41,219 nt of DNA from Mariniblastus sp. (GTDB lineage Bacteria > Planctomycetota > Planctomycetia > Pirellulales > Pirellulaceae), in the NCBI GenBank assembly GCA_029247405.1, contig JAQWLH010000253.1:1-41219 (forward strand), in the 5' to 3' direction. The position numbers and the translations under genes were made by a program. The notes under the pieces are model-generated. The model was not told the DNA's origin. It did not search any database and worked only from the letters and a program-made list of their open reading frames with translations. This document shows, piece by piece, positions 13,063 through 30,611 of the stretch; within the stretch, counting starts at the first letter, position 1, and every line of letters starts with the position of its first letter.

Positions 13063-15867
13063 CTAATTTACAACTTGAAATTTCATCTCGGGATTCAGCG
13101 AAGCAGTTTTGTTGTTGCCCAAGTCTTCCACTCTTAAATCAAGTCGATAGTTTCCGGGAGGCAGTTCGCCAATTTGGATGGGAAAATATAGATAGAAATC
13201 ACGACGTCTTTGCCGCACAACATCTTCGACGATCGGGTATTCTGCCTGCTGAACTGCCCTGCCCTGCTCGTCATAAACGACATAGCTTCCTCGAAGTTTT
13301 GTATGGAAATTCGTTTGGAAATTTTCAACCCTTGCGTTGGACAAGTAGTTTTCGACTTCGCAATAAACCAGAGTTCTCTGCCCGGGCTTAAACGAATTGC
13401 TGGAGAATGGCGTAAACTTTCCAAATCCAGAAATCTCGGAACAAAATGCGCCGTTGGCAACACTGAGTTTAGCGATTGCCTCCAAACGCTCGACAGCTTT
13501 TCGCAGGTGGTGAAGTGTTTGATAAGCGGCATTGTGACGGTCCATCTCTGAAGCGTCTGATTCTTGAGGCAGCATCATTGAGATCGCGTCAAGCTGGTGC
13601 TGCCAATAATCACGTTCTGGGTTTGCCATCTCCGTCTGGTCTTTTTCGGTGGATCGCAATTGGCGCTGTAGTACTTCGAGTAATCGCAAGTTGACCTCCA
13701 TACCATTTCGGGTCAGTGGGTCGACCTCGTCAGTAACTTGGCTGCGAACGTTTGCGATCGTTTCTGCAAGTTTCAAGTCCCATGGCACGGTGTTGTCGAT
13801 GACTTCGGCAACCAATGTTGGTTTATCCGAGGGTAGCAGCGTGTCCCCGCTATTCACAGGAACCTCTGTTGTCTCTGCCAAATCAGATCTTGGGGATTCT
13901 GTCGCTTTTGAATTTGCTGGGGCTGTTTCAGGAGCGGGGGAAGCAGGTGGCTTGGGATTCGATCCCTCAATAAGCTCGGTCCCTGAAGTCACCTTGGTTG
14001 TCACGGGGGCAACCCATGAAGCGGAGGTTGCGTTGTTGTCAGGGTTTTTCCATGCTGCGAAGTCGGATGTGGCAATCTCGGTTTGATGGCTGGCCGGCGA
14101 AGATTGGCTGAGAATAAACTTGTTGGGGATTTCCATGGATAGATTGTTATCCGGAACGTCAATCGACGTTGGTGGAGCAAAATCGGAATTGACCAATTGG
14201 TGGTTGCAGTTGGCGACAAAATTATTTTCCGCACACTCAGAGCAACGCGCTTTGACGCTCGCTTCTTGAGTTGACGTAATCGCTGGGCTAACAACTTCAG
14301 CCCACTCCTGATTATTTAAATTTTGATTCTCAGGTTTTTCATTCTCGCTGGCATCTGCCAAGTCCGCTGCGACACCATTGGTGTGCGTCCGCTGTATTTG
14401 TGACTCTGTGAGCGCTGAGTCAAACAGAGCCGCGGGGGCAACCTCAGTCGGTTGCGGAGTGAATGAGGCGTGAGCGACCTGGTCCATTTCAGGATGCTCT
14501 GCAAACGGTGGAAAAGTTTCATTGTTCATCGTCGCGACGATCACAACATTTTCTGACTCTATCGGTTCGGAAGGTATGGATTGGACAAACCCAGTTTGTT
14601 TGACATTGAACTGGGGGGCAGTAGGACTGGCTCGTAAAACACAGGATCCGTCACATTGGTTGAGCTGGCAGGACTGGCACAACAGCTGCGGCTTGAATCC
14701 AGGATATTCTGTCTTGGGGATTTCTGCGATTGAATTGACTTCGGCCAGGGCTGTTTTGATCTCCCCTCTAGGAGCTTGGGTTAGCTCGCCCTGGGTTGCA
14801 ACGATTGGGTTCTCTGGTGTTGCTGAGATAGGTTCAAATGCATTCATTCGTTGTTGGCTTGGCCTCGGCCGAATTGAGCTTTGTGCAGTTTGAGATTGAG
14901 TCGCTGGAATGTTCGGATTTGACGGCCGCATTGGTTTTAATTCAGTCCGAAGTAAATTCGCTCTCAGTTTGGCTTGATCATTTATTTGATTCACGCCTTC
15001 GTGGAAAATCGGTGCCAGAGGACGCTGGCCCGTTGGTGTGGGCAACGATTGAGGTTGAGGGAACGCGATTGGTTCTGCGTAAGGAAGTTCTGGCTTAAGT
15101 TTTGGCTTCATGCAGTCACACTCGACATGACCACAATTCCCGGGTGAGTTTTCTTGCTCAGGCTGTGGGCTCAGCGGCTGCATTGCCGAAAGCTTGATCG
15201 CTGCAGACGTTGCGGCGGTAATTGGGGCCGCCGGATTGTCCGGTCTGAGTTGCGATGGAGTCGTTGGGGTCAATCGCAGCGGCTCGCGAACCGCTGCAGC
15301 TGCCATAACGTCCAATCTTTTAGCCCCAGATAGGCTTGAATTTTTGGTTTGTGAAATGGGGGAATTGCTTGATGTTTCAAACTGATTGGAGGCTGGGAGG
15401 TTTTCTTCAAGGGTTCGCGCTGCACCGGTTGTCGCCGATTCAATCGAATCTTTGATCGGGGGCGCCGGGGGTGAGACGAAATCGTTCTCTCGATTAGATA
15501 ACTCGCGATTGCTTGTCTCTTGAGCGACGAAAATGACTTCTGAAGTTACCTCGTCAATGATGTCACTGGGATCTTCTTCCATCGAAACATCCTCAACCAA
15601 TTCGCCACGCAGTTCCAGCAATTCGTCCAAGGCGATCTGTGGGTCGTTGACGAACCGGCCTTGCGTTTCGGGTTGCTGAAGAGTTTTCCCAACATCCGTT
15701 AATTCAGGTTCTGCGCTTGAATCAGGGGCTTCGATTGCCAAAAAGTCGTTATTGATGAACGCTGAAAAATTGTGGAGCTTTGAACATCCCGTTTGTAGGG
15801 TGCCAATGGAGATTACAACCACGAAGACTTTGAATAAATTGGGGCAAACCAGATTCCGTTCCGGCAT
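13063..15867 (-). CDS. Large putative lipoprotein with three cysteine clusters
   Basis: A 934-residue protein without a family I recognise. The N-terminus is a lipoprotein-type signal (VFVVVISIGTLQTGC) with the lipid-accepting Cys at 28. Residues 30-700 are low-complexity and rich in Ser, Thr, Pro, Gln and Glu, probably disordered. Within them are three compact Cys clusters: C245/C250/C252 (CGHVECDC), C397/C400/C405/C409 (CQSCQLNQCDGSC) and C542/C545/C554 (CSECAENNFVANC). The end (about 790-934) looks folded: helical, then beta-rich around RTLVYCEVENYL, GSYVVYDEQG and LPPGNYRLDLRVED. The ATG at 15867 has AGGA eight bases upstream. It follows holA on the same strand after about 330 bases. A surface or periplasmic structural role is possible but not shown. 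Confidence 0.75.
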   Translation of the reverse strand: MPERNLVCPNLFKVFVVVISIGTLQTGCSKLHNFSAFINNDFLAIEAPDSSAEPELTDVGKTLQQPETQGRFVNDPQIALDELLELRGELVEDVSMEEDPSDIIDEVTSEVIFVAQETSNRELSNRENDFVSPPAPPIKDSIESATTGAARTLEENLPASNQFETSSNSPISQTKNSSLSGAKRLDVMAAAAVREPLRLTPTTPSQLRPDNPAAPITAATSAAIKLSAMQPLSPQPEQENSPGNCGHVECDCMKPKLKPELPYAEPIAFPQPQSLPTPTGQRPLAPIFHEGVNQINDQAKLRANLLRTELKPMRPSNPNIPATQSQTAQSSIRPRPSQQRMNAFEPISATPENPIVATQGELTQAPRGEIKTALAEVNSIAEIPKTEYPGFKPQLLCQSCQLNQCDGSCVLRASPTAPQFNVKQTGFVQSIPSEPIESENVVIVATMNNETFPPFAEHPEMDQVAHASFTPQPTEVAPAALFDSALTESQIQRTHTNGVAADLADASENEKPENQNLNNQEWAEVVSPAITSTQEASVKARCSECAENNFVANCNHQLVNSDFAPPTSIDVPDNNLSMEIPNKFILSQSSPASHQTEIATSDFAAWKNPDNNATSASWVAPVTTKVTSGTELIEGSNPKPPASPAPETAPANSKATESPRSDLAETTEVPVNSGDTLLPSDKPTLVAEVIDNTVPWDLKLAETIANVRSQVTDEVDPLTRNGMEVNLRLLEVLQRQLRSTEKDQTEMANPERDYWQHQLDAISMMLPQESDASEMDRHNAAYQTLHHLRKAVERLEAIAKLSVANGAFCSEISGFGKFTPFSSNSFKPGQRTLVYCEVENYLSNARVENFQTNFHTKLRGSYVVYDEQGRAVQQAEYPIVEDVVRQRRRDFYLYFPIQIGELPPGNYRLDLRVEDLGNNKTASLNPEMKFQVVN

Positions 15868-21119: not shown

Positions 21120-23378
21120 TTATTGCTCACGTGGCGAACGCTCTCCAACGGGAACGACTCCATGAATCGTACCGCGGGGGACCAACCCTGAAACATCGAT
21201 GGCTTGAGTTAGCATATGCACGCCAACATTGCCGGCTTTGTCGAGCGCTTCAATTCTCAGGAAAATTTGATCTGGAACATCCGAGGTTGGTTTCCAGACA
21301 AAACGTCCTTCGTTGCGAAGCCCTCGACCAATCGAGTTCCAGGGACCCTGCGGAGTTGGACTGTAGGCCAAAGCAATGGGTCGAAGCGTCAAGAATTTAT
21401 CTGACACCGAATAGTTGATTACCAACCTTCCCGCCTCACGACCCCGCCCATAAGGCACAGATGTAATCCGAGTCAAAGGCGATTGTGTATCGACTAAGAC
21501 CCACATGTCAGCGTCATCGCCACTGGAGGGCCCCTGCCCTGTTAGGCCATCTCTGGAATGGACGACGATTCGGAAACCGTACCGCCCTTCTTCTTGAATC
21601 TCGACTGGAAAGGGACTTTGATTGTCGGGGTCACTCCCCCAGGTCTGCCATGACTTTCCACCATCTCGGGTTAACCAGAGGTCGACTCTGGCCACCCCTG
21701 ACGGATCGATCGAATCGATACCGTAATTCAAGCGGAAGCGTTTGCTTCCAATGATTTGGATCGGAGCGTTGGTCGCGCGGTCAGGCATCAAGCTGTTTGC
21801 GGCTTTTGGTTGACCAAACCCGGTTTGCGAAAAATTGCCTTGGGGAGTGGCCTCGATCTGTGAAAGCTGTTGACGGGGTTGGCGATGAGAGTCTTGGGCT
21901 TGATCAGCTTGTTGGTTGATTTTGTTGGCTGCCAGGTTCTGTCCGGCGGTATCTGGCAAAATGCCCTCAACTCCGGGCAGCAAAGTTGATTTTGGGATCT
22001 TGCGATTATTTTGAGAGCTCAACCCGCGATATTGGTTGGTCACACCCATCGTCGATGACTGACCAATGACTCGGTCACCGCTTCGTACCATCGTCGGTGA
22101 ATTGGAGGGAATCTTTGTAACGGATTGGCGCGGCAATTGGTTGGGAAATGGGTCGGGTGCGATTCTGGGATCAGGTCCAATGGTGGATGAAACACTCGTT
22201 TGATTTTGAGGAATCCAGTTTTCAACATCGCTCTGCCAGACTTGGGATGGGTTTGGAGAAACGACAGGAGGAATATCTGTCGAACTCGGTGACCCATCGC
22301 GACCGATTTCTGAGCTGGCTTGCTGCGATGAAACAATCGCAGATGTGTCGCGAAGTCGGGTGCGTGATTTTGATTGGTCGAAATTCCAACGATTGTCATT
22401 CGTCAGGCTGCCAACTTGCTTTGATTTCGGCGTGGGCTTTACCGCCGGAGGAGCGGAAGTGGCATTGTGAGTGGTTTGATCGTTATTGGTTTGGGAAGTT
22501 GCCAAGCGATTATTCAAAGACGAGGCAATTTGAGGCGAACGATCAGTGATTTGTGCCGTTGATTTGGCTTTATGTTTCCAGCCAGTTTGAGTGACTTGGA
22601 TTTGACGCGTTAGTTGAGTTGTATTACCAGCAATATCTTTTACCTCGACGGCGACGTTGAGTCTCCGTTCGGTGGTCTCAGGCCACCAAGCAAGTTGGTC
22701 AGCATAGACGCCCCCGACCGCGGCTGCGGTCAGTCGTATTGGGACTTGAGTCCAAGCCTTCGAGGCTCCTTGGCTGCCAGTGGGTTGATAAAAAATTCGC
22801 ATCGTGTCGGTCGCAAGATTTTTGTCCATTGCCCGCCAGCGGCACACGATTCGGCCAGCTGCATCGGTTTCAATTCGAAAGTCAAGTGTTGGTTTGACGG
22901 TGTCCACAATGATGCTTAGGTCAATTTCCGGATCGCCATCGGGAACCAGTTTCCGGTCGCGATTAAGAGTCTTTAACGAAAACCAGTACTCTCCATCGGC
23001 GTCAGCTTCAAACGGGAACTCCTGCTGATCGGTCGCTTGTCGGCCTTGAAATCGCCAGGTCTTACCTTGGTCACGGGAGAGGTAAAGCTGGACCTCAATA
23101 AATGAATCGTCAGCAGCATTGATCTGGAATGGGACTCCGAACTGACGCAGGTTCGTGGCGACAGTCTTGTATTTAGCTGAACTTCCAAAAGGCGAATCCG
23201 GTTTAGTGTTCGTCTGAGAAAAAGCTTGAGCAGAGCGTGTCGGTGCACCAGCGTTTTGGTTTTTCGTGATCCCTGATTGCGCTTGCAGGTTGGAATGGAA
23301 GTGCGGACCGTAGGCGCAAATTAAAATGAGCAGAGCCATGCCCCAGAGGGGTGTCGGTCGGCGATCAGTTTTTGTCAT
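21120..23378 (-). CDS. Large exported protein with two Ig-like / Asp-box-like modules
   Basis: A 752-residue hypothetical protein. A signal peptide (WGMALLILICAYGPHFHSNLQAQ) is followed by a linker, a first module with VQLYLSRDQGKTW (about 97-109) and DGEYWFSLKT, and a beta-rich stretch ending near VEVKDIAGNT. A long low-complexity Ser/Gln/Asn/Pro region comes next, then a second module repeating the pattern: VDLWLTRDGGKSW, EEGRYGFRIV, VDTQSPLTRI and IEALDKAGNVG. The repeated xxSRDGGKxW and xDxAGN motifs point to tandem Ig- or fibronectin-like folds of bacterial surface proteins. No catalytic residues are recognised. A TTG at 23393 could start the frame, but the ATG at 23378 gives a tidy signal peptide and is chosen. 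Confidence 0.75.
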   Translation of the reverse strand: MTKTDRRPTPLWGMALLILICAYGPHFHSNLQAQSGITKNQNAGAPTRSAQAFSQTNTKPDSPFGSSAKYKTVATNLRQFGVPFQINAADDSFIEVQLYLSRDQGKTWRFQGRQATDQQEFPFEADADGEYWFSLKTLNRDRKLVPDGDPEIDLSIIVDTVKPTLDFRIETDAAGRIVCRWRAMDKNLATDTMRIFYQPTGSQGASKAWTQVPIRLTAAAVGGVYADQLAWWPETTERRLNVAVEVKDIAGNTTQLTRQIQVTQTGWKHKAKSTAQITDRSPQIASSLNNRLATSQTNNDQTTHNATSAPPAVKPTPKSKQVGSLTNDNRWNFDQSKSRTRLRDTSAIVSSQQASSEIGRDGSPSSTDIPPVVSPNPSQVWQSDVENWIPQNQTSVSSTIGPDPRIAPDPFPNQLPRQSVTKIPSNSPTMVRSGDRVIGQSSTMGVTNQYRGLSSQNNRKIPKSTLLPGVEGILPDTAGQNLAANKINQQADQAQDSHRQPRQQLSQIEATPQGNFSQTGFGQPKAANSLMPDRATNAPIQIIGSKRFRLNYGIDSIDPSGVARVDLWLTRDGGKSWQTWGSDPDNQSPFPVEIQEEGRYGFRIVVHSRDGLTGQGPSSGDDADMWVLVDTQSPLTRITSVPYGRGREAGRLVINYSVSDKFLTLRPIALAYSPTPQGPWNSIGRGLRNEGRFVWKPTSDVPDQIFLRIEALDKAGNVGVHMLTQAIDVSGLVPRGTIHGVVPVGERSPREQ

Positions 23379-23836
23379 GATGGAAGTCCGCAATTGAACA
23401 GTTGGGAATCACGCGGAAGAGCGATCGGCGCGCAATGGTCCTATCAAATTCAAATTCGGCTTCTGAGACCGTTGGGAAACACTGATTGAGTCGATTCGAT
23501 ATCTGTTTCGTTTGTAACGGTCAAACGAAGCCGGCGGTCAGCAAGCTTATTGACGGTTTTTCACCCGCCACCGTCAGTTGTCCTTGGGCTATTTCATCCC
23601 AGAATGTCACAAAAGAGGCAGACTGGATCCTTAGGTGGATGGATGGAGCCCACCGGGATTGCGGAAATATTATATTTTCGTGAACCTCAGGCCCCTTATC
23701 CCGTATCACTTTCCGGTAAGACGAAGAAAGCTCATCAATGAACTCATACCAGGGGGAAGTTGAATGCAAGTTTCCTAAGCGTTTTAGAGTGAAAGCTCGA
23801 CGAGTTGAGAAATTGAGCTAAACCTAGCACGCCTCA
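23379..23836. other. Divergent intergenic region, nothing recognised
   Basis: About 460 bases between two divergent genes; promoters for both are expected. Short frames here show no signal peptide, motif or good start. No clear hairpin with a T-run was found. Confidence 0.5.
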
Positions 23837-24447: not shown

Positions 24448-25731
24448 ATGCCCGCAGGCAACGATTCGGGAAGTGGCCGTACAACAGGTGCTTCCAAAAA
24501 GAACGCGCATTGTTCGTTTTGTCGAAAAAACTATCGTGACGTTGGACCCTTGGTCGAAGGGCCAGGCGATGTCTACATTTGTGGAGATTGCATTGAACTG
24601 TGCCAGTCCATACTGGAGCAGGAGCAGCGTCGACGTGGTCCGTCAAAACAATTATTCAACAAGATTCTGACACCGCGCGAAATCGTAGCGAAGATGGATG
24701 ACTATGTCATCGGCCAGCAGTCTGCAAAGAAAGTGCTGGGCGTTGCTGTCCATAATCACTACAAGCGTCTGTCGCTTGGCTGGGAAGGAAATGACGTCGA
24801 GATTGACAAATCCAACATCATGCTGGTCGGGCCAACGGGTTCGGGCAAAACGTTGTTGGCTCGCACATTGGCGAGGATCTTGAATGTTCCATTTGCAATC
24901 GGCGATGCGACGACACTTACCGAAGCAGGTTATGTTGGCGAAGATGTTGAAAACCTTTTGTTGAAACTTCTGCACGCTGCGGACTTTGATGTAGAACTAG
25001 CCCAAAGGGGTGTGATCTACATCGACGAGATCGATAAGATCGGCAAGACGAGCAACAATGTCTCGATCACCCGCGATGTTTCAGGCGAAGGCGTTCAGCA
25101 AGCTCTTCTGAAAATGTTGGAAGGCACCGTTGCCAACGTGCCACCGCAAGGTGGACGCAAACACCCAGAGCAACAGTACATTCAGATTGACACCAGTGAC
25201 ATTCTGTTTATCTGTGGTGGAACGTTCGTGGGCATTGACGACATTATTCGAAAGCGTCTTGGAGAACGCACGATTGGATTTGGGTCTGATGCAGGCTACC
25301 GTGAGGAAGCTGAAGTCGCCGAAATTCTGCCACAAGTCACTAGTGACGACATTCTGGAATTCGGGCTAATCCCGGAACTGGTTGGTCGTTTACCAGTGAC
25401 AACGGCACTCGCTCCGCTTGGCGAAGACGGACTGATCAAGGTTTTGACAGAACCTAAAAACGCACTCGTGCGTCAGTTCGAGTCACTTTTCCAAATGGAG
25501 AATTGCGAACTTAACTTTACCGACGAGGCGCTAAAGAAAATTGCCAAAAAGGCGATGGAAAAAGGAACCGGTGCACGAGGCCTTCGTTCTATTCTAGAGC
25601 AGGTCATGCTTGACATCATGTACGATCTACCCGACAAGCCGAAAGGCTCAAAGATTGTCATTGACGAAAAAATCGTGAGCCAGGGAATTAATCCTCAATT
25701 GTTTTCGATGCCAGAGTCCAAAAGCGCATAA
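24448..25731 (+). CDS. clpX: ATP-dependent Clp protease ATP-binding subunit ClpX
   Basis: ClpX is the hexameric AAA+ unfoldase that feeds proteins to ClpP. The 427-residue protein begins with the N-terminal C4 zinc-binding domain (CSFC at 22-25, CGDC at 45-48). The AAA+ core has Walker A GPTGSGKT, the pore loop GYVGED, Walker [11 protein letters not shown], the sensor region around [12 protein letters not shown], the [10 protein letters not shown] loop and the C-terminal [10 protein letters not shown]. Nothing is missing. The ATG at 24448 has AGGAG five bases before it. No clpP or tig lies next to it, unlike the common tig-clpP-clpX order. The nearest downstream terminator is about 370 bases away. 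Confidence 0.97.
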
Positions 25732-26852: not shown

Positions 26853-26884
26853 AAAAAGCTCGCCAACATGTTGACGAGCTTTGA
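26853..26884 (-). terminator. Rho-independent terminator of the HMA-domain selenoprotein gene
   Basis: Stem AAAGCTCG / CGAGCTTT extended by CAA / TTG after one mismatch, with loop CATG. On the minus strand it is followed by seven or more T residues (26853-26859). It lies about 20 bases after the UAG at 26904, not after the in-frame UGA at 27084, which supports 26904 as the true gene end. Confidence 0.88.
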
Positions 26885-26903: not shown

Positions 26904-27272
26904 CTATTCCACTTTTGACCAACCCTTGAGCTTGTTTTTCGCCGAGGCAATCTCCGTCAATTTAGCTTCAATGTCTAAATCAGCGGGAACTTTGAAGTTG
27001 CAAGAACTATCGGCCAAGTCGCAATTGACATCGCTTGCTCCGAGGCCTTTCAATGCAGTGCTCACGGCACCTACACATCCGCCTCAAGTCATGCCTGGAA
27101 GTTTCAGAGAAACCGTTTGGGTTTCTCCAGCGGGTGCCGCTGGGACTTCAGGGGTCACGGGGGCAGCGGTTGCTGCTGCATCGCCGCTGGCTGCTTTTGT
27201 TTCTTCTGGTTTGTCACAACCAGTTGAAATGGCGAACAAAGTCATCGCCATCAATGCTAAAAGAAATCGCAT
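26904..27272 (-). CDS. Candidate selenoprotein: lipoprotein with a heavy-metal-associated (HMA) domain, Sec63 at an in-frame UGA
   Basis: The gene reads through an in-frame TGA (27084-27086) to give 122 residues. The N-terminus is a lipoprotein-like signal (LLALMAMTLFAISTGC, Cys19) followed by an Ala/Pro/Glu linker. The HMA domain starts at TVSLKLPGMT; the next codon is the TGA, then GGCVGAVSTALKGLGA. In this family the motif is GMTCxxC, so the UGA falls exactly on the first metal-binding Cys, giving UGGC. The frame stays family-like after it (DVNCDLADSSCNFKVP, then a final helix) to a UAG, and a terminator follows. Two further Cys occur at 84 and 91. AGGAG lies six bases before the ATG. It likely binds metal ions or acts as a thiol/selenol redox protein outside the cytosol. 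The alternative is a Cys-to-stop mutation. Confidence 0.82.
27053..27078 (-). promoter_or_regulatory. Candidate bacterial SECIS element
   Basis: Directly after the in-frame UGA (27084-27086) the minus strand can fold into a lower stem (ATGT / GCAT), a 3-base bulge (GTA), an upper stem (GGTGC / GCACT, one G-U pair) and a 5-base loop, CGTGA. The loop has G at its second position, 19 bases from the UGA. This fits the known bacterial rule of a small apical loop with a G in its first two bases, about 16 to 37 bases downstream. The element lies inside the coding frame, as in bacteria. The pairing was done by eye. Confidence 0.6.
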
Positions 27273-27788
27273 TTCTTTCTCCTAATGTTTCGTTTGAGTT
27301 TGGGCGTGGAATATTATCACTACGTCGTGGGTTGGTGCCCAAGGAACATGTTATCGACTTAGGGAATTTGAAAACAAACCGAAATCAAGAATCCTGCAAA
27401 TTTTTATGAGATCTGCGGGTGAATTGCGTTAATTTTCACTTTCAACTCCCTCTTTCGGGTAAACCGGGACCCAAATCGCCAAAATAACCGTTCTTTTTGT
27501 TCGGAAATGATTCTTTTGGCACGGCCCGGATTTGTTGAGACCGCTACCGGCTGGGTAATTGAGGACGGTTTAGAATATATATCCGTAATTCGAGCGAAGT
27601 TCGGACGATTCTCTTATTGCAAATACTCGGTCAATCAGTACACTTTCCGGACTGATAATAAAGCGAGTAAAGCTTTGTGTACCGGTTCGTATTGACGAGC
27701 CATTTGTCGTTTGTAGGTAATTGTAGGAGTTGGATCGACGCGAGGCGGCAGAGTTCCCAAATTGCCGCGGTAACAGGATCAATCGGTT
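27273..27788. other. Divergent intergenic region upstream of the selenoprotein gene and rpsO
   Basis: About 515 bases between divergent genes. The strong ribosome binding site of the HMA gene is at the low end and the rpsO leader at the high end. No additional gene is recognised. Promoters for both genes should lie here, for example near the AT-rich stretch around 27570-27585. Confidence 0.5.
27745..27768 (+). promoter_or_regulatory. rpsO leader hairpin, possible autoregulatory site
   Basis: Six-bp stem GCGGCA / TGCCGC around a 12-base loop, 20 bases before the rpsO start. Just past it the leader reads GCCGCGGTAA, identical to part of the conserved 16S rRNA 530 region. Ribosomal protein S15 represses its own mRNA through leader structures in several bacteria, so this is a candidate site. 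The link is inference. Confidence 0.4.
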
Positions 27789-28058
27789 ATGACCATTACG
27801 AAAGAGAATAAAGCTGAGTTGGTAAGTGAGTTCCAAGCCAAAGATGGTGACACTGGATCTCCCGAGGTTCAAATCGCCATTTTGACGACGCGAATCAACC
27901 ATCTCACAGAGCACATGCGGTCGAACAAGAAAGATTATTCGACACGACGCGGTTTGTTAGGCATGGTTTCTCGACGTCGCCGCTTGTTGGATTATGTTCG
28001 TAATAATGATGCGGACAAGTATCTCGATCTTCTCGAGCGACTTAACATTCGTAAGTAA
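27789..28058 (+). CDS. rpsO: Small ribosomal subunit protein S15
   Basis: S15 binds 16S rRNA early in assembly of the small subunit platform. The 89-residue protein is full length with the family marks: [21 protein letters not shown], the RNA-binding [28 protein letters not shown] segment, and a final [12 protein letters not shown]. All key RNA-contacting residues look present. ATG at 27789; a weak AGGA lies upstream. A strong terminator follows within ten bases of the stop. pnp comes next on the same strand, the common bacterial rpsO-pnp order, in which read-through and separate promoters both contribute to pnp expression. Confidence 0.97.
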
Positions 28059-28283: not shown

Positions 28284-30611
28284 GTGAAAGTAAAAGTAGA
28301 AAAGAAAATTGGTGATGGCGTCCTTTCCTTTGAGACGGGTTATTTAGCCAAGCAAGCTGCTGCTTGCGTTTTAGTTCAATATAACGACACCGTTGTCCTC
28401 TCAACCGCTGCGACCGGCTCGCCGCGACCGGGAATCGACTTTTTCCCATTGATGTGTGATTATCGTGAGCGGACCTGTGCGGCTGGTAAGTTTCCTGGTG
28501 GATTCATCAAGCGTGAGGGGCGTCCGACCACCAAAGAGACATTGACTGCTCGTTTGGTAGACCGTCCCATTCGCCCGATGTTTGCTGAGGGTTTCAAAGA
28601 CGAAGTCCAATGCCAAAACTTTGTGTTATCAAGCGACAAGCAGACTGACGGTGATGTGTTGGCCATGAATGGAGCGGCGACCGCATGCTTCATTTCTCCG
28701 ATGCCCTTTTTAGACCCAGTCGCTTCTACCCGTGTCTCTCGAATTGACGGAGAGTTCGTTGCGTTCCCAACGCATGATCAGCTTGAAGAAAGTGATATGG
28801 ATTTGATCATCTCGGCAACGGATGACGCGATCACCATGATCGAAGGATTCGCTCGGGAAGTCCCTGAAGATGAAATGCTAGAAGCACTTGAGTTTGGTCA
28901 CGTGGTTTGTCGCCAAGTCATCAGCTTGATGCGTGAGTTGTATGAAAAAGCCAACGTTGAGAAAACGCCTTTTTCTTCTCCTGAAGATGACGGCATTCTT
29001 GATCAGCTTATCTCGAAATACTATGACGACTACAAGTCTGCAATTTTGATCGGCGGCAAGCATGATCGTGGCGCTGCCAAAAATGAATTGAAAGACAAAA
29101 TCAAAGCAGAGATGATTCCGGACGCTGATGCCGACGATGCATTGGATATGGGGGCTTTGAAAACTGCGATTCACGATCTGGAAGAGAGAGTCATTCGCGA
29201 TTCAATTTTGGCCGGTACCCGTTCTGATGGTCGAGATGGCAAAACACTTCGAGCAATCGAATGTCAAACCAACGTGATTCCTCGCGTTCACGGTTCAGCG
29301 ATATTCCAGCGAGGCGAAACTCAAGCCTTGATCACTGTGACGCTGGGAACGGGGCGCGATGAGCAACGAGTCGATGGGTTGCTAGATGAGTACTCCAAGA
29401 AGTTTATGCTCGATTACAACTTTCCCAGCTTCAGCGTTGGCGAGTGCCGACCGATTCGCGGCCCGGGCCGTCGAGAAATTGGCCACGGTGCGTTGGCTGA
29501 GCGAAGTATCAAGCCTGTTCTGCCTGATCAAGATGATTTTCCCTACACGATTCGAATTGTCTCTGACATCCTTGAATCAAACGGCTCTTCGTCAATGGCG
29601 ACTGTTTGCGGAACGACTCTCGGCTTGATGGCCGCTGGTGTCCGAATCAAGAATCCCGTTGCCGGTATTTCCGTCGGGATGGTTAAAGAAGGCGATGACT
29701 ATGCCTTGTTGACTGACATTCTCGGAAGCGAAGATCACTTCGGTGATATGGATTTTAAAGTCGCTGGAACTCAAAACGGTATTACCGGAATTCAGTTGGA
29801 TCTTAAGATTCGTGGAATCAGTTGTGAGCTTCTCAAAGAAGCATTGGCTCAATCTCGCGAAGCTCGGATCGAAATTCTCCGGACCATGCTTCAAGCCATT
29901 CCGCGTCCGTTGGAAGATTTGTCGGAGCACGCTCCACGCTTGCTTGTCACTCAAATTGATCCTGAGAAAATCGGGATGCTGATCGGACCTGGCGGGAAAA
30001 ACATTCGCTCCATTCAAGAAACCACACAGACGGTGATCGAGGTGAGTGAAGACGGTCGCGTGACCGTGGCCGGGACCAATGGAGCCTTGGCTGAAGCGGC
30101 GTTAAAGAAAGTTGAAGCCTGCACCGCGACGGTTCAAGTTGGCAAGATCTATGACGGTACTGTCAGCAGTGTCAAAGACTTCGGCGCGTTCGTGGAAATC
30201 CTCCCGGGCCGAGATGGACTTTGCCACATTAGCGAACTGTCCGGTGGTTTTATCGACAACGTCGAAGATATCTGTCACGTCGGTGATGAGATGAAAGTTC
30301 TTGTCCTTGATGTTGATGGCAACGACCGAGTCAAGCTAAGTCGACGTAAAGCACTTGAGGAACTTGGACTCGAAGATGAGTTGGCGACTGCCGACAACGC
30401 AGGTGGTGGCAGTAGTGACGATGGAGAAGATCGTCCTCCACGTGAAGACCGAGGCGATCGAGGCGACCGAGGCGGAGATCGCGGACGCAGCGGCGGCGGT
30501 GGTCGTGGTCGTAGCGGCGGCGGCGGCGGTGGCGGTCGTAGTCGCAGTGGCGGCGGTGGTGGTCGTGGACGTAGCGGTGGCGGCGGTGGTGGCGGTCGCG
30601 GACGTCGTTAA
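28284..30611 (+). CDS. pnp: Polyribonucleotide nucleotidyltransferase (PNPase) with a long Gly/Arg tail
   Basis: PNPase is a trimeric 3'-to-5' phosphorolytic RNase in mRNA turnover. The 775-residue protein has two RNase PH domains (the first from GDGVLSFETGYLAKQA; the second with RSDGRDGKTLRAIECQ, FQRGETQAL and the active-site region GSEDHFGDMDFKVAG), a helical linker, a KH domain (IDPEKIGMLIGPGGKNIRSI), and an S1 domain (GTVSSVKDFGAFVEI, GLCHISELSG). After the S1 domain comes an unusual tail of about 70 residues: acidic first (SSDDGED), then repeats of Arg, Gly, Asp and Ser ending in poly-Gly with RGRS units. The start is a GTG at 28284, with AGGA about eight bases upstream. A perfect terminator follows at 30677-30709. 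Confidence 0.97.
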   Translation: MKVKVEKKIGDGVLSFETGYLAKQAAACVLVQYNDTVVLSTAATGSPRPGIDFFPLMCDYRERTCAAGKFPGGFIKREGRPTTKETLTARLVDRPIRPMFAEGFKDEVQCQNFVLSSDKQTDGDVLAMNGAATACFISPMPFLDPVASTRVSRIDGEFVAFPTHDQLEESDMDLIISATDDAITMIEGFAREVPEDEMLEALEFGHVVCRQVISLMRELYEKANVEKTPFSSPEDDGILDQLISKYYDDYKSAILIGGKHDRGAAKNELKDKIKAEMIPDADADDALDMGALKTAIHDLEERVIRDSILAGTRSDGRDGKTLRAIECQTNVIPRVHGSAIFQRGETQALITVTLGTGRDEQRVDGLLDEYSKKFMLDYNFPSFSVGECRPIRGPGRREIGHGALAERSIKPVLPDQDDFPYTIRIVSDILESNGSSSMATVCGTTLGLMAAGVRIKNPVAGISVGMVKEGDDYALLTDILGSEDHFGDMDFKVAGTQNGITGIQLDLKIRGISCELLKEALAQSREARIEILRTMLQAIPRPLEDLSEHAPRLLVTQIDPEKIGMLIGPGGKNIRSIQETTQTVIEVSEDGRVTVAGTNGALAEAALKKVEACTATVQVGKIYDGTVSSVKDFGAFVEILPGRDGLCHISELSGGFIDNVEDICHVGDEMKVLVLDVDGNDRVKLSRRKALEELGLEDELATADNAGGGSSDDGEDRPPREDRGDRGDRGGDRGRSGGGGRGRSGGGGGGGRSRSGGGGGRGRSGGGGGGGRGRR

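Follow-up and report, generated by a model that had tools for sequence, protein, structure and literature searches.

The window analysed here is the whole of a 41,219-nt stretch of Mariniblastus sp. DNA (GenBank assembly GCA_029247405.1, contig JAQWLH010000253.1, positions 1–41,219 of the forward strand). From 27272 to 26904 on its minus strand lies a frame made up of 62 codons counted from the ATG, a UGA, 59 further codons and a TAG, in which the UGA (27084–27086) is the sole break in 122 codons. An earlier note had described this frame as encoding a probable new selenoprotein, an exported HMA-domain lipoprotein with selenocysteine (Sec) at the first metal-binding Cys. The frame was confirmed from the sequence, as was the claim that a UGA read as a stop would leave a 62-residue product. 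The gene, called the Sec-HMA gene below, sits between clpX and a divergent pair formed by an S15-like gene and pnp, and the locus comprises the following features.

26904–27272, minus strand: Sec-HMA gene, 122 codons, UGA at codon 63, ending in TAG
27084–27086, minus strand: UGA codon probably read as Sec, at the first ligand position of GMT-U-GGC, as judged from relatives
27279–27283, minus strand: putative ribosome binding site AGGAG, 6 nt upstream of the ATG, from sequence reading
26855–26882, minus strand: intrinsic-terminator-like hairpin of 12 pairs with a T run, downstream of the TAG
27216–27272, minus strand: probable signal peptide with lipidation at Cys19 (ISTGC-D), from sequence reading
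26940–27107, minus strand: HMA domain, residues 56–111 (Pfam PF00403)
27057–27071, minus strand: SECIS core hairpin, 5-bp stem and loop CGUGA (27062–27066), from covariation and codon-randomised controls
27042–27086, minus strand: extended SECIS-like fold starting at the UGA, minimum free energy −16.7 kcal/mol
24448–25731, plus strand: clpX, convergent neighbour (Pfam zf-C4_ClpX and AAA_2)
27789–28058, plus strand: S15-like gene, conserved divergent neighbour, adjoining the Sec-HMA gene in relatives
28284–30611, plus strand: pnp (polyribonucleotide nucleotidyltransferase), conserved neighbour (Pfam)

The ribosome binding site and the terminator that had been pointed out on either side of the frame were both recovered, the latter as one of three terminator-like sites in the region, where shuffled sequence would give 1.8. 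A promoter-like site at 27341–27313 was rejected, such sites occurring at the chance rate (one found, 1.2 expected), and Rfam models gave a single chance-level match across the gene region (17.2 bits against 50). The frame at 27789–28058, which we take to be a ribosomal protein S15-like gene, adjoins the Sec-HMA gene in all ten same-genus loci compared (L020–L029), and pnp was matched at eight of these ten; short flanks may account for the other two. Scanning of 16 neighbouring frames, four of which matched nothing, gave no recognisable metal-resistance gene, mer gene, metal operon or redox partner gene, and the locus appears to be a single-gene unit for a one-domain HMA selenoprotein that is exported and probably lipid-anchored. 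Because no metal operon was recognised beside the gene, its function is argued from the HMA domain alone. Elsewhere in the window, two long minus-strand frames (13063–15867, 934 amino acids, and 21120–23393, 757 amino acids) have no Pfam match at E ≤ 1e-4.

HMA domains bind metal through a CxxC ligand pair. With the UGA given as Cys, residues 56–111 of the Mariniblastus protein matched Pfam HMA at E = 5.7e-9 (36.7 bits, cut-off 24.8), and the match spans the UGA, which falls, as had been proposed, on the first metal-binding Cys of the motif. The site is thus UxxC (GMT-U-GGC) and not CxxC, with its positions unchanged. PF00403 also matched all 46 family domains scanned at E ≤ 0.01. A single-sequence AlphaFold model, of modest confidence (mean pLDDT 66.4, with block means of 72–84 over residues 51–110), gave a beta-alpha-beta-beta-alpha arrangement in which residue 63 opens helix 1. 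In Foldseek searches against the PDB, the nearest folds were the Cu(I) metallochaperone CopZ (2qif; E 2.5e-3) and MerP (E 2.7e-3), each with a probability of 1.00 and neither reaching E ≤ 0.001, a level at which no match was returned; the best PDB profile matches were copper ATPases. At the N-terminus, a hydrophobic stretch closing with GC-D is followed by a charged, Ala/Pro-rich long linker and then by the HMA domain. The residues G18, C19 and D20 are invariant across eight aligned sequences, the Mariniblastus protein included, and the lipobox is presumably non-canonical, with Ser at −3. The product is apparently exported and is probably lipidated at Cys19.

To place the UGA in a family context, 241 genomes of the same taxonomic family were searched at E ≤ 1e-6, giving matches at 60 places in 42 genomes, the best relative being 51% identical over residues 1–122. 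Exactly one in-frame TGA was present in 54 of the 60 places and none in the other six. All 54 TGAs lie at the motif column, with no scattered stops, and all six places lacking a TGA carry Cys there; the UGA form is present in 37 family genomes. On first reading, 58 motif matches gave 53 TGA, 4 TGC and 1 TGT codons under a pattern restricted to UGA and Cys codons in that place. The pattern missed two places, L066 and L078, which on later reading have UGA and Cys, respectively; both were excluded from every hairpin count, and L078 (genome G101) is an ordinary-looking HMA domain within a long frame of 841 residues. The ratio of nonsynonymous to synonymous proportions after the UGA was 0.27 among eight same-genus orthologues and 0.12 among seven copies of a second paralogue, and purifying selection is acting on the codons downstream of the UGA. 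The pattern that the earlier note had proposed as a check in related planctomycetes, UGA or Cys at one column with conserved codons beyond it, is what the homologues carry. Several same-genus genomes hold the second paralogue (L053–L060), a protein of ~250–270 residues with an N-terminal region followed by the Sec-HMA domain.

In a domain tree of 73 domains (66 Sec and 7 Cys, two of the Cys rows being distant HMA proteins), the Cys forms are scattered, and at least three changes are forced by well-supported branches; many forks are left unresolved because the alignment has only 72 columns. A class-wide search with the family profile (397 genomes, E ≤ 1e-15) found 24 places, 21 of which have one TGA. 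In a 392-genome sample of the phylum, in which the share lying outside the class was not shown, two genomes matched at E ≤ 1e-15, namely the Mariniblastus genome itself and one class genome. When contigs were scanned with Cys put for the UGA, 22 loci came back, one of them titled Planctomycetota (L101); the count favours Cys forms, since the only motif-spanning pattern was built on Cys codons. The class also holds a lower-scoring HMA group, otherwise mostly without UGA, with an in-frame TGA in G448, G342, G526, G567 and G488; SelB is over the cut-off in all five genomes, and this group is possibly another Sec-HMA family.

The sequence following the UGA was then compared with the published bSECIS limits, given in the accessible text of a 2026 review as a loop of 3–9 nt, a stem of 4–16 bp, a G in the first two loop positions, a spacing of 16–37 nt from the UGA and an energy of −7.5 (PMC13188914). 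The published −7.5 was replaced by a hairpin energy limit of −3 kcal/mol, our own choice; none of the 53 UGA genes has a 45-nt energy above −8.1. The Mariniblastus hairpin lies within the loop, stem, G and spacing limits, with the loop CGUGA beginning 17 nt past the UGA on a 5-bp stem. Merging of identical 57-mers among the 58 motif matches (53 UGA, 5 Cys) left 50 UGA genes, 49 of which fall within the same four limits; the 40 randomised sets averaged 18.2 and never exceeded 25. Locus L020 does so by a different, later hairpin, and L027 has no hairpin within the limits.

In the fixed register, bases 16–20, numbered from the U of the UGA, pair with bases 26–30. After merging of identical 45-mers, 49 distinct UGA genes formed 198 of 245 such pairs, compared with 127.1 (sd 6.9, maximum 154) in 1000 codon-randomised sets whose codon pool was the homologous genes themselves, whereas the five Cys homologues were at the null (8 of 25 pairs against 7.5). 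Of the 49 family sequences, 61% have the complete register, and in most of the rest the stem is displaced by one or two bases or sits further downstream. Covariation was measured on alignment A1, made of 45 of these sequences, in which 83.1% of cells pair and all five pairs change on both sides, giving a score of 0.406 against 0.170 for shuffled and ≤ 0.189 for slid alignments. This test leans to the fixed register, because the four repeats of locus L031, whose best stems lie further downstream, were left out. An out-of-sample set was drawn from 30 loci of the class search (L103–L132) as 18 unseen motif matches near the locus centre, 16 UGA and 2 Cys. The 16 UGA genes formed all of their 80 pairs, the randomised expectation being 44.5 and the maximum 59 in 1000 sets, and all 16 fall within the bSECIS limits. 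For the Mariniblastus gene itself, the 45-nt fold had a z of −2.40 relative to dinucleotide shuffles, of which 5 in 200 folded as well, and of −1.16 relative to codon-randomised versions. Overall 45-nt folding energy showed no difference between the 53 UGA genes and the 5 Cys genes (mean z −0.51 and −0.47, respectively), so the two are separated only by the local hairpin. In L031 and L067 the best hairpin is further downstream, with a loop of GGUCU or GGUCC ~22 nt past the UGA (AGUCU in one L031 repeat); the GGUCU/GGUCC loop presumably resembles that of E. coli fdhF.

The selenocysteine machinery was sought in the Mariniblastus assembly, which is 83.7% complete in 302 contigs. SelB (E 2.2e-114) and SelD (L133, G000 C42:12756–13682) were both over their cut-offs, SelA was represented by a fragment cut off at a contig edge (245.1 bits, below the cut-off of 267.9), and tRNA-Sec was not found in the assembly; the check proposed earlier thus turned up selB and selD, part of selA and, in this incomplete assembly, no selC. 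Eight sub-cut-off Rfam candidates for tRNA-Sec were rejected as ordinary tRNAs by ARAGORN (Ser twice, Gly, Cys, Leu, Tyr, Arg and His). The SelD gene has one in-frame TGA of its own, at SCAGUAGK. SelD is listed with a UxxK motif in the accessible text of PMC13188914. The SCAGUAGK codon fits that motif, and on sequence grounds SelD is likely to be an independent selenoprotein of the same genome.

Among the 37 family genomes with the UGA form, SelB was found in 34, tRNA-Sec in 34 and at least one of the two in 36. One or the other was present in 36 of 37 UGA genomes versus 88 of 204 other family genomes (Fisher p 5e-11, relatedness ignored). Neither was found in G135, an 80% complete genome with two UGA copies, L027 and L060, the second of which forms five of five pairs. 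Neither was found, at the thresholds used, in G004 and G005, which have the Cys form only, and G046 and G019 have the Cys form despite SelB and tRNA-Sec. A UGA match was present in 26 class genomes, 21 of which were in the class SelB test and the other five in an earlier SelB test; SelB was over the cut-off in 20 of the 21. The only SelB-like piece in class genome G504 is below the cut-off, at a contig end.

Longer relatives were also scanned for additional domains. In genome G062 (contig C92), L031:742–2094 is a single lipoprotein-like frame of 450 residues with four tandem HMA domains and a UGA at MT-U-GGC in each; there is no other stop before the TAA, and each of the four UGAs is followed by a hairpin within the bSECIS limits. 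Multiple Sec residues are noted in some archaeal proteins, and if all four UGAs were decoded L031 would exceed the maximum of 3 Sec seen in Table 1 of that review (PMC13188914, accessible text). An N-terminal YceI domain was present in 6 of 10 longer relatives scanned, with the YceI domain and a C-terminal Sec-HMA domain in one frame at L032, L043, L061, L068, L073 and L075. The YceI family is linked to lipid binding and envelope stress. In one of the ten (L053) a heavy-metal resistance domain (Metal_resist) was matched below threshold, and the N-terminal region of L060 gave no Metal_resist match. These fusion partners, YceI and the sub-threshold heavy-metal resistance domain, fit an envelope role.

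Eight proteins, from Mariniblastus and seven relatives, were compared with NCBIfam models, and none passed any cut-off. Among the closest known systems, NF041115 (UxxU (seleno)protein, putative mercuric reductase type) has Sec at the first ligand of an HMA-like domain, as here, and similarity to it was seen in 45 of 46 family domains at E ≤ 0.01. It differs in having two Sec (UxxU; PMC13188914, accessible text), whereas the second position of the Mariniblastus protein is Cys, and against its cut-off of 95 bits the Mariniblastus protein scored 26.5 and the seven relatives ≤ 60.3, the four-repeat protein being the top. MerP (TIGR02052) is an exported single HMA domain, as the Mariniblastus product appears to be, and is the best NCBIfam model for six of the seven relatives; its cut-off is 92.55 bits, against 23.9 for the Mariniblastus protein and 26.2 to 79.7 for the relatives. 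Unlike MerP, the Mariniblastus protein has a lipobox-like Cys and a long Ala/Pro-rich linker, with no mer genes recognised alongside. The HMA part of NF045683, a MerT/CopZ fusion-like heavy metal transport selenoprotein, could be aligned with 42 of 46 family domains, whereas that protein is MerT-fused by its name and has a cut-off of 375 bits, compared with ≤ 61.2 in family proteins. The Sec P-type cation ATPase is a large membrane pump, unlike the apparently exported stand-alone domain of the Mariniblastus protein. The two share the UxxC motif (PMC13188914, accessible text).

Sec has been listed before in related proteins, namely a UxxU metal-binding protein (NF041115), a UxxC P-type ATPase and a mercuric transport protein (PMC13188914, accessible text), and a 2008 survey of Global Ocean Sampling data reported two Sec-containing 'Mercuric transport protein MerP' sequences, known here by their listing alone (PMC2398784, accessible text). 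A 2016 study of planctomycete selenoproteins places its candidate table in a supplement (PMC4807772, accessible text). The family appears to be unnamed in NCBIfam and in the literature searched, a comparison that lay outside that supplementary table. No exported HMA lipoprotein selenoprotein, Sec-HMA/YceI fusion or four-Sec HMA protein was found in the literature searched, to which subscription papers and supplements largely did not belong, and no paper in it joined a selenoprotein with YceI. Because Sec in HMA-type proteins has been described before, this is a new family of an already known kind. Of the earlier description as a probable new selenoprotein, the selenoprotein part is supported by the relatives, the SECIS hairpin and SelB, and 'new' holds for the family and not for Sec in an HMA-type protein. 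What is apparently new is the class-wide exported family, its YceI fusions and the relative with four Sec-HMA repeats.

Taken by itself, the locus would say little. The window holds 146 TGA-ended stop-to-stop frames of ≥ 60 codons, of which 19 have ≥ 59 open codons after the TGA and 19 have a SECIS-like hairpin by a loose rule; three, including the Sec-HMA gene, have both, and because of these frequencies an open frame with a hairpin is not improbable at one locus. As judged from the sequences, what is more than chance here is the HMA match across the UGA together with the relatives. On this basis, we place the probability that the Mariniblastus protein is a full-length selenoprotein, with its UGA decoded as Sec, at roughly 0.92. 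A sequencing error cannot account for the recurrence of the identical UGA in 37 genomes. That recurrence, in 54 of 60 homologous places, would also require a pseudogene or recent nonsense mutant, with the UGA a stop and the remainder decaying, to have arisen many times. The commonness of such open frames in the window and the missing tRNA-Sec would suit decay, whereas the constraint past the UGA, the covarying hairpin and the presence of SelB speak against it, and we consider it extremely improbable. Decoding in some other way, by a near-cognate tRNA that inserts Trp or Cys, or by a regulated stop yielding a short and a long product, is better placed and still most unlikely. Any read-through would keep the post-UGA frame constrained, and the sequence is compatible with two products from one gene. 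However, the column holds UGA or Cys in 60 of 60 places, UGA-form genomes nearly always have SelB or tRNA-Sec, and the hairpin fits the bSECIS limits while the fixed pairs of the five Cys homologues stay at chance level.

If the UGA is decoded as Sec, a ribosome would reach it at codon 63, and comparative evidence together with established knowledge of SelB and SECIS elements suggests that the hairpin just past it would recruit SelB and selenocysteinyl-tRNA. Sec would be inserted, and translation would run on to the UAG. The mature domain would then display Sec-Gly-Gly-Cys at the opening of helix 1, the site of the HMA Cys-x-x-Cys, and the selenolate-thiolate pair may bind a soft metal, e.g. 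Cu(I), Hg(II) or Ag(I), at the envelope, for buffering or hand-over. Soft-metal binding by the Sec-Cys pair is, from the domain and its motif, the likeliest function, at about even odds. Its main functional rival is a selenoprotein in which the UxxC pair carries out redox chemistry, such as thiol-disulphide or peroxide reduction at the envelope, in place of metal binding. Such a role would agree with the presence of oxidised MerP (1osd) among the closest folds, with the YceI domains of the longer relatives and with the statement that the majority of uncharacterised selenoproteins are likely to be redox proteins (PMC13188914, accessible text). Set against this, the fold is HMA and not thioredoxin-like, and no redox partner was recognised among the neighbours scanned; we regard a redox role as rather unlikely. 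Under soft-metal binding, the class-wide exported Sec-HMA set, comprising stand-alone lipoproteins, YceI fusions, other exported N-terminal fusions and the four-repeat lipoprotein, could be read, tentatively and at somewhat less than even odds, as envelope soft-metal traps.

If a gene caller takes the UGA as a stop, the functional domain of the Mariniblastus gene and of its relatives is lost, and an exported family spread through the class would be missed or filed as fragments. The protein would be a clean case for testing Sec in a metal-binding fold that lies outside the cytoplasm, which bears on the role of Sec beyond redox enzymes, and the four-Sec relative bears on how SelB may handle four successive UGAs in one message.
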